A stretch of DNA of 46,221 bases from Candidatus Bathyarchaeota archaeon B24 (lineage in GTDB: Archaea; Thermoproteota; CALKCG01; B24), in NCBI GenBank assembly GCA_001593865.1, contig LUCB01000001.1, positions 87,670-133,890 of the forward strand, written 5' to 3'. Below the pieces are notes generated by a model that was not told where the DNA came from, made no database searches, and saw only the letters and a program-made list of their open reading frames with translations. Within the stretch, counting starts at the first letter, position 1. Each line of letters begins with the position of its first letter. The translations under genes and the position numbers were made by a program. This document shows, piece by piece, positions 19,014 through 31,604 of this stretch.

Positions 19014-19740
19014 GTGAAATTTTTGTCCTATGAGAGTTTTAAGGAGGAAAAAGAACGGCTCATAGAGATCTACATCAGAGAAGGGATCTTAAAGACCAAG
19101 CTCGTTATAGAGGCCTTCAGAAAGGTCCCACGTGAAAACTTCGTCCCAGATTACCTTAAACACTACGCGTATGCAGACACTCCTCTACCCATAGGTCATG
19201 GCCAAACGATATCTGCACCACACCTTTAGCCGTTTAAAGCGGCTAAAGGGGTGAAACATGGTGTGTATAATGAACGAAGAGCTTGAGCTAGAGATAGGGT
19301 TAAAGGTGCTTGAGGTAGGAACCGGGTCTGGATACCATGCATGCACTATAGCCGAGGCAGTCGCCCCTTCAGACACTTCTAAGGAGAAGTGGGGGCACGT
19401 ATGGACCGTCGAGATAATACCTCAGCTCTGTAAACTGGCCGAGAGAAATATACGTAAAAGCGGATATTCAGATAGGGTTACTGTGATATGCGGAGACGGC
19501 TCGCTGGGGTATCCTGAAGAGGCACCCTACGACCGTATCCTCGTGACGGCAGCGGCACCGGATATACCGGATACGCTCGTAGAGCAGCTTAAGCCAGGGG
19601 GTGTCATGGTTCTACCCGTAGGGACGCCTGGGGGATTTCAGGAGCTAGTTAAAGTATACAAAAAGCCTAACGGCTCGGTGGAGACTAAATATCTCGGAGG
19701 AGTAGCGTTCGTTCCTTTAAGGGGTAGGAAAGGCTGGTGA
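19014..19740 (+). CDS. pcm: Protein-L-isoaspartate O-methyltransferase, split by a 34-nt BHB-type intron
   Basis: Repairs isoaspartyl residues in aged proteins by SAM-dependent methylation. Exon 1 (19014-19221) gives [10 protein letters not shown] and [10 protein letters not shown]; exon 2 (19256-19740) gives [14 protein letters not shown], the SAM loop [13 protein letters not shown], and the C-terminal [14 protein letters not shown] and [12 protein letters not shown]. Read straight through, the frame stops at TAG 19227, in the middle of the ISAPHM-V-x-M block that all family members keep intact. Removing 19222-19255 joins CAC to ATG and yields one 230-residue protein of normal length. The removed piece folds into the core of an archaeal splice motif (see the intron entry). 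I therefore annotate it as one spliced gene, not two. GTG 19014 is the likely start. Confidence 0.85.
19222..19255 (+). other. Candidate 34-nt bulge-helix-bulge intron in pcm
   Basis: Seen in sequence: CACC (19216-19219) pairs with GGTG (19250-19253) as a 4-bp central helix. It is followed on the 5' side by the 3-nt bulge ACA (19220-19222) and on the 3' side by the 3-nt bulge AAA (19254-19256). Inside is a perfect 10-bp stem, CCTTTAGCCG with CGGCTAAAGG, and a 7-nt loop (19233-19239). Archaeal splicing endonuclease normally cuts after the second base of each bulge, here after 19221 and 19255, which restores the reading frame exactly. The outer exon helix is weak (two pairs, a mismatch, one wobble), so this would be a relaxed HBh'-type motif. 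The intron carries the in-frame TAG that ends the unspliced frame. Confidence 0.82.
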
Positions 19741-22896: not shown

Positions 22897-24136
22897 TTAT
22901 AATATGTTTATCGAGCCTTCAGCCAATTTTAGACAGAACTCCTGTATATGGTCGAGCTCGTCGAGTATTATCGCCCGAACAGGCTCTCTGATCGTTTTAA
23001 GCTTTAACCCCCTCTCTGGGACTACCTGTACCGCGGCCACCCTAGGCTTGTTTATGGGTTCTCCGATGTGGCTCAGAAGCCAGACGTAGACTTCTCTGAG
23101 CCCCGAGACTTCTCGATATATCCTATCGGCTATTCGATAGGTGAGCACGTTGTATATCTTCCCGATATGCGACACCGGGTTTTTACCGGCTGCAGCCTCG
23201 CTACTTATGGGACGGTTCAACGGTATGATCCCGTTAACCCTATTCCCTCTACCGACTTGACCTGAGTCTGCATCGTCGGCGCACGTCCCCAATACGGTTA
23301 GATACACTCCTTTAACTCCTCTACCCCTCCTATCGAGGGTATTCAGGTGAACACTAACACTCCCTCTGGTATACCTTTCAGAGGCCCACTCTCTAAGCTC
23401 TTCCAGTATCTCATCCTTACGTTTGAAATAGGCGGCCTCAGACTCGACAAACCTATCGACAAACGCCATGGCGACCGTAAGCTCTAAACGTCTTCCTCGC
23501 CTGAAACCCATGACTTTAACATCCTCACCTGCTTCAGGATGTCTACGTTTGAACTCTTTGGAGTTTAGGAAACGCTCTGTATCTAAAACCAGCCTCTCCG
23601 TCTCCGTCATAGGTGCATACCCGACGGCGGCGGAGGTATCGTTAGCTCCTAGAACCTTGGTTTTCCGCTCGAAAATGTCTCTTAGGGCCTCAGAACCTCT
23701 CCTAAGCTCGATCTGGTACCTGACATGAACGTCTGGGTCTACAAACCGTAGGTTCTCCCTGAACCACTTCTTCGCCGTGTTTATGGCTATCTCGTCGACA
23801 GGTACATACTCATCGCCGACGGTGTAGGTCGCCCTGTCGCCGAATATAAGAGTCATAGGCTTCTTGAGGATTCCGCCGCCGAACCTATGCTCAGCCTCCC
23901 CTGCGGCTAGTAGAGCCTTATCTATGTTATGGTGAGCTATGAAGCCGAATCTTTTGATATATTCTAAGCTTAGGTTTACTGAGACAGACTCCATGATAGC
24001 GTCGCATATGTAGTCTGGGTGGCCTAATCCTTTAAGGACCGGGGGGTTAACCCGACCCGGTTTTCCTCTCGACGATCTCCACAGCTTGCTTTGAAACCGG
24101 TTTGCGGTTGAGCTTCTCAAGTGATATTATAGTCAT
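22897..24136 (-). CDS. metK: Archaeal S-adenosylmethionine synthetase, split by a 31-nt BHB-type intron
   Basis: Makes SAM from methionine and ATP; expected to be essential. Exon 2 (24031-22897) has GLGHPDYICDAIMESVS, HHNIDKALLAAG, FGDRATYTVGDEYVP and GKNPVSHIGKIYNV, all typical of archaeal MAT. Its frame has no proper start: upstream it runs into an unrelated-looking reading. The missing N-terminus is in another frame from ATG 24136 (MTIISLEKLNRKPVSKQAVE, then IVERK) and stops at TAA 24049-24047 after 29 codons. Removing 24062-24032 joins IVERK to GLGHPDY, exactly the family sequence, giving 402 residues, the usual length. It is the last gene of the mtd-methyltransferase-lsm-metK cluster, with a possible TATA box (CTTTAATTCC on the minus strand) near 24164-24173. 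Confidence 0.88.
24032..24062 (-). other. Candidate 31-nt bulge-helix-bulge intron in metK
   Basis: Seen on the minus strand: GAGG (24068-24065) pairs with CCTT (24037-24034) as a 4-bp central helix with one G-U. The 3-nt bulges are AAA (24064-24062) and AAA (24033-24031). The inner stem is ACCGGG with CCCGGT, then a 2-nt bulge (TC), then GGG with CCC closed by a TTAA loop: nine pairs in all. Cutting after the second base of each bulge (after 24063 and 24032) removes 31 nt and restores ERK-GLGHPD in frame. No convincing outer exon helix is visible, so this is a relaxed HBh'-type motif. The intron contains the in-frame TAA of the unspliced message. Confidence 0.82.
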
Positions 24137-30939: not shown

Positions 30940-31604
30940 CGATGGGTAAAATATCTACTATGACTTCTCATGAGAGTATGCTCTCATGCTTCTTTTCACG
31001 CTCTCCTCTGCAGGGACTTCTGATCAACTACATGGGTGTGGAGAGGTGTTTTAGGTTTCTGCCAAGATACCGTCTGAGATTAAGGGTTTAATGGAGGCTA
31101 TAAAGATGTCTAACGATAGTTCCATGAAGTCGTAGCCCAATCACCCGTTAAAATCCTAAACTTAGGAGAGAACTGTTCGGATCACTTCCCCCTAAGCTTT
31201 TTTAAGAAATTCTGTATACCGTGCTATCAAGGGACGAGCGATTATCTGCATAAGCATGGTAAATACGTCACATCCATATAGACGGATGGGCTAAACCCCT
31301 CTTGCCGCTTCTTCAGGAGACCGGGTTAGATGGGGTCGAGGCTTTAACAGTTAAACACGTGGGCGATACGACGCTTGAAGACGTTAAGAGGCTTTAGGGG
31401 ACGAGATGGTTCTACTGGGTGGAATACCGTATATACTCTATACCAGAGGCTGTCAGCTTTGAGAAGTTCGACGAATTCGTCATGTGGATAATTTCCATGT
31501 TTTCAGACGACTTCGTCCTCGGTATATCAGATGGGCTACCACCAGCTGACGATGGCAAAGTCAGAAGGGTTTCAAAGATAATAAAGCATATGTGTAGAAG
31601 ATGA
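30940..31604 (+). pseudogene. Decayed uroporphyrinogen-decarboxylase/MtaA-like gene
   Basis: Pieces of one protein can be followed through several frames: SPLQGLLINYMGVERCF, PSEIKGLMEAIKMSND, QSPVKILNLGENCSDHF, FKKFCIPCYQGTSDYLHKHG then KYVTSI, PLLPLLQETGLDGVEAL then HVGDTTLEDVK, GDEMVLLGGIP, and from about 31467 FVMWIISMFSDDFVLGISDG then LPPADDGKVRRV. In this order they match the URO-D superfamily as used in corrinoid/methyl-transfer proteins (the HKHGK segment, GLDGVEAL and GGIP). At least three frameshifts and several stops separate them, so the gene is dead. A 61-codon open piece remains at 31419-31604. Bases 30814-30939 hold nothing recognisable. The fragments were assigned by eye. Confidence 0.72.

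Follow-up and report, generated by a model that had tools for sequence, protein, structure and literature searches.

A probable BHB-type intron in the SAM synthetase gene (metK) of an archaeon labelled Candidatus Bathyarchaeota

Pre-mRNA introns in cbf5, and their loss, have been described in Crenarchaeota, i.e. in Desulfurococcales and Sulfolobales (PMC2738675), and splicing of cbf5 has been proven in this group. A statement of 2020 names the cbf5 intron as the sole further BHB intron reported from mRNA (PMC7714728). In sources of 2009 and 2020, cbf5 is the one archaeal protein gene known to contain a BHB intron. In archaeal pre-tRNAs, introns with the relaxed HBh′ motif are cut by (alpha-beta)2 endonucleases (PMC6379350). 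Introns in metK or pcm were not mentioned in the literature that we searched, which lay mostly outside the subscription journals, so that an earlier report is possible, and a search for archaeal splicing together with metagenomes yielded nothing.

The window analysed here, a stretch of 46,221 nt, belongs to the genome of Candidatus Bathyarchaeota archaeon B24 (G000), which is a metagenome assembly, like all genomes compared. Its SAM synthetase gene, metK, is interrupted by 31 nt, which very probably represent a BHB pre-mRNA intron that is spliced to give the full enzyme. The gene is laid out as follows:

24063..24136, minus strand: metK exon 1, 74 nt, start ATG 24136; MTIISLEKLNRKPVSKQAVEIVER, then AA, the first two bases of a Lys codon
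24032..24062, minus strand: putative metK BHB (HBh′) intron, 31 nt, carrying a TAA in the frame of exon 1
22897..24031, minus strand: metK exon 2; A completes the Lys codon, followed by GLGHPD...; stop codon TAA; PF01941 match with 1.4e-155

The original prediction had placed the N-terminus and the part from GLGHPDY onward in separate frames, and this is seen in the translations (24136-24063 versus 24031-22897). Exon 1 ends with VER plus AA, and exon 2 is read in a different frame of the minus strand; translation from ATG 24136 opens with MTIISLEKLNRKPVSKQAVEIVERK and then hits the TAA within the insert. With the 31 nt cut out between the second and third base of both bulges, the gene encodes an intact protein (...VERK-GLGHPD...), and the predicted junction joins ...GAGAGGAA to AGGATTAGG. 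The 402 residues foreseen for this cut match PF01941 at positions 3-394 of 395 with 547.5 bits, compared to only 24-394 and 517.4 bits for the unspliced open reading frame that starts at TTG 24120. The spliced product aligns with solved archaeal SAM synthases from residue 4 onward, and NCBIfam calls it methionine adenosyltransferase with a score above the cut-off. A group I or group II intron does not fit, with 31 nt far too short for a catalytic RNA core, and neither does an intein, given that the insert is out of frame and carries a stop; an Rfam search of the window returned one tRNA only. The search for a second metK that had been proposed along with the prediction retrieved neither an archaeal-type nor a bacterial-type gene from the assembly; the genome is rated 90% complete, so that a second copy might sit in the missing tenth.

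On the minus strand, the insert (24062-24032) and its borders fold as GAGG-AAA-ACCGGG-TC-GGG-TTAA-CCC-CCCGGT-CCTT-AAA, with the following elements:

24065..24068, minus strand: 5′ strand of the central helix H, GAGG (exon 1), invariant in 5/5 genomes
24062..24064, minus strand: 5′ bulge AAA, predicted cut 24063/24062, AAA in 5/5 genomes
24038..24061, minus strand: intron stem h′, ACCGGG/CCCGGT, TC bulge, GGG/CCC, loop TTAA, with covariation
24034..24037, minus strand: 3′ strand of the central helix H, CCTT, replaced by CCTC in more distant relatives (G-U to G-C)
24031..24033, minus strand: 3′ bulge AAA, predicted cut 24032/24031, middle base A/G/C/T in relatives, outer A fixed

The TAA, the two AAA bulges and the GAGG/CCTT helix are present just as first described. 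The GC-rich stem had been given as 9 bp; its nine pairs exist, but they are not contiguous, i.e. 6 bp and 3 bp around the TTAA loop are separated by the 2-nt TC bulge. In this genome, as in four relatives, the exon-intron borders form a 4-bp helix that is flanked on both sides by a 3-nt bulge. No contiguous outer helix is formed by the exons, which assigns the motif to the relaxed HBh′ type. When the metK introns were shuffled, the central helix together with the required stem (5-6 bp) was obtained in only 8-46 of 200,000 trials. In the alignment of the five metK sequences, 94.3% of the cells in helix H and the 11-pair stem are paired, and 9 of the 11 aligned stem pairs show two-sided compensatory changes. 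The covariation score of the same alignment is 0.647, compared to a mean of 0.290 after shuffling (0 of 500 as high) and to values of at most 0.133 for slid registers. Glu-Arg-Lys is encoded by the GAGG strand together with the first bulge, and both are constant in the five genomes. The 3′ bulge has the form A-N-A, with the middle bases A, A, G, C, and T and a fixed last A, which belongs to the Lys codon. Such a pattern would be expected from splicing that takes place between bases 2 and 3, and relative to the predicted cuts, the variable bulge bases fall on the intron side.

The class of G000 is represented here by seven genomes (G000-G006). At the identical codon position, metK carries inserts of 33, 33, 35, and 37 nt in G001, G002, G005, and G006, respectively; together with the 31 nt of G000, the lengths span all three frame classes, and each of the five inserts contains a TAA that is in frame with exon 1. 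The metK of G004 is uninterrupted, and no metK was retrieved from G003, a genome that is 72% complete. None of 80 homologues that come from named genomes outside the class has an insert at this site, and all 80 retain the ERKGLGHPD motif; the listed matches, from 200 genomes of the phylum, did not include a metK with a comparable stop or truncation. Codon differences in exon 1 are predominantly synonymous, i.e. 7 synonymous versus 1 non-synonymous between G000 and G001, 8 versus 2 between G005 and G006, and 10 versus 4 between G000 and G002. By these counts, exon 1 is under purifying selection.

In the metK tree, the intron-free G004 groups with the G000 family (95/89), and G005 and G006 lie outside. 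Taken at face value, this tree suggests that the ancestor of the class already had the metK intron, which was lost in G004, and that the pcm intron described below was either gained in the line of G000 and G004 or lost in G005 and G006. A tree with the intron-bearing sequences as one clade is not rejected at the 5% level (p-AU 0.08), so that the order of gains and losses is tentative. Two observations concern metK in other families. The metK of G007 (JASEET010000004.1; L040 / L106) has an in-frame insert nine codons past the intron site, within the same conserved motif; it contains a LAGLIDADG domain and weak intein-splicing matches and is thus a likely intein. The near-complete genomes of family f6 (G009, G018, G025, G032, G039, G046, and G053) have no PF01941 match and may use another SAM synthetase.

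G000 encodes two subunits of a crenarchaeal-type tRNA-splicing endonuclease (PF01974) and the ligase RtcB, so that it has both components that HBh′ introns require. For the alpha subunit, the best match is the Aeropyrum chain 3p1z_B (1.9e-43), and the protein contains the loop lysine that confers broad BHB specificity as well as the triad's His and Lys region; in the alpha subunits compared, this loop lysine is aligned to Aeropyrum K44. The second subunit lacks the catalytic His. Two PF01974 subunits were found in six of the seven class genomes, and one in the 72% complete G003. The motif has no contiguous outer helix, and cleavage would therefore depend on an enzyme that tolerates relaxed motifs. 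In the proposed mechanism, GAGG in the last part of exon 1 would pair with CCUU in the last part of the intron, beside the intron hairpin, leaving two 3-nt bulges. The two-subunit endonuclease would cut each bulge after its second base, and RtcB would ligate the exons to the mature mRNA for the SAM synthetase. In an unspliced message, translation from the ATG would end after about 30 codons. We infer both the cleavage and the ligation from the sequences, and splicing would be required for SAM production. The initial assignment to the BHB-type introns is supported by the splice geometry, the conservation of position and fold, though not of stem sequence, in five genomes, the frame-varying lengths, the constraint on exon 1, and the presence of endonuclease and RtcB.

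It had also been suspected that annotation hides further introns of this kind, and three more genes with candidate introns were found, one of them, pcm (protein-L-isoaspartate methyltransferase), in the same window:

19014..19221, plus strand: pcm exon 1, likely start GTG 19014
19222..19255, plus strand: putative pcm BHB intron, 34 nt, CACC-aca-[10-12 bp stem]-GGTG-aaa
19256..19740, plus strand: pcm exon 2; the spliced protein is an end-to-end PF01135 match (1e-68)
L185:9144-9160 (G000 C36): putative cbf5 intron, 17 nt, with outer helix, between GTL and DP
L148:9654-9675 (G000 C3), minus strand: putative 22-nt BHB intron in a gene for a stand-alone Lrp/AsnC ligand-binding domain; spliced PF01037 match 4.5e-15

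The pcm intron is shared by G001 (34 nt), G002 (29 nt), G003 (29 nt), and G004 (31 nt), and it is absent from G005 and G006. In all seven class genomes, cbf5 carries an insert at one and the same site, and its removal after GTL restores GTLDP; the fold was confirmed by a script in G000, G001, G005, and G006, whereas G002-G004 were read by eye. The intron in the Lrp/AsnC-domain gene is 21-22 nt long in G001-G003. Homologues of this gene in G005 and G006 likewise show stops near the intron site. The inserts in pcm, cbf5, and the Lrp/AsnC-domain gene have in common the 4-bp helix and the 3-nt bulges of an endonuclease substrate.

The intron survey covered about 802 kb (46%) of G000. A motif scan gave similar numbers of weak candidates in the genome's own and in control sequence, so that the signal is not separable by the scan alone, and a scan with a codon-usage filter missed the pcm intron. 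With this coverage and these misses, four intron-bearing genes are a lower bound. Three candidates were rejected, i.e. PheT (L173), in which frame 2 is intact, L171, which comprises adjacent ribosomal genes (S28e/L24e), and L172, which comprises two neighbouring amidohydrolase genes. Elsewhere in the window (31263-31604, plus strand), two short adjacent coding-like open reading frames look like relics of a single gene that a stop has divided.

Other readings of the metK insert have to be weighed against splicing. Translational bypassing is known from gene 60 of phage T4 and from the byp elements of yeast mitochondria; here, ribosomes would hop over the folded 31-37 nt of an RNA that stays unspliced. 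Bypassed inserts are short hairpins of similar size, and in G000 the take-off AAA is matched by an AAA immediately ahead of GGA. However, known bypassing requires matched take-off and landing codons, and the landing triplets opposite the take-off AAA are AAA only in G000 and G001, but AGA, ACA, and ATA in G002, G005, and G006. In addition, hopping does not need the endonuclease-substrate geometry that is seen in pcm, cbf5, and the Lrp/AsnC-domain gene, and we consider bypassing very improbable. Even less probable is that splicing does not occur at all and exon 1 is dead, with a shorter SAM synthetase made from a downstream start or from TTG 24120 with a replaced N-terminus. In G000, a 407-aa open reading frame from TTG 24120 is indeed open across the insert. 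In G001, G002, G005, and G006, however, the exon-2 frame is stopped in the insert, with loss of the ERKGLGHPD motif, and it contains no ATG, GTG or TTG from that stop to GLGHPD; in four of the five genomes, the unspliced message thus could not yield an enzyme with this motif. The selection on exon 1 also argues against a dead exon. The window comes from a single metagenome assembly, as would suit an assembly or sequencing artefact, or a pseudogene, but the insert recurs in five assemblies with diverged stems that still pair, both exons are constrained, and another metK was not found; this possibility is close to negligible.

Another proposal accepts the BHB intron and adds that its removal is regulated, making it a switch on SAM production. 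The in-phase stop of all five inserts lies close to the gene's 5′ end, and the other intron in the window sits in the gene of a SAM-dependent enzyme, pcm. However, 10-12 codons are fairly likely to contain an in-phase stop by chance, and one member of the class, G004, manages without the metK intron, so that we regard a switch as quite unlikely. The broader statement, i.e. that BHB message splicing recurs in core genes of the class (metK, cbf5, pcm, the Lrp-type gene, and probably more) and that metK splicing controls the SAM supply, is, taken as a whole, unlikely. The preferred reading is a BHB intron that is spliced from the metK message.

On this reading, BHB introns would reach essential metabolic genes, and one little-known archaeal lineage from hot springs would carry several such introns. 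The class offers a testable system for the gain and loss of introns, with those of metK and pcm lost or absent in different families. At such introns, archaeal annotation places N-termini wrongly without any sign of it, or lists genes as split.

The fold and the predicted cuts indicate that the metK intron is of a known kind, the archaeal BHB pre-mRNA intron. Its interest lies in the host gene, in the covariation, and in the occurrence of several such putative introns within one lineage. The cbf5 introns (PMC2738675) likewise have a BHB-like fold at the exon-intron borders and a cut between bulge bases 2 and 3, an internal sequence that is free to vary, a link to the two-subunit endonuclease, and vertical inheritance with lineage-specific loss. 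They differ in that the host here, within a lineage labelled Candidatus Bathyarchaeota, is the essential metabolic gene metK, along with pcm and the Lrp/AsnC-domain gene. The HBh′ introns of pre-tRNAs share with metK the 4-bp central helix, the 3-nt 5′ bulge, the intron hairpin, and the absence of a closed outer helix, whereas the metK intron lies in a protein-coding message, in which the exon strand of the helix is constrained by the codons GAG AGG AAA. The BHB motif of Haloferax HVO_1309 (PMC7714728) is, like that of metK, an mRNA substrate of the splicing endonuclease; in contrast to its location in a 5′-UTR, the metK intron interrupts the coding sequence.
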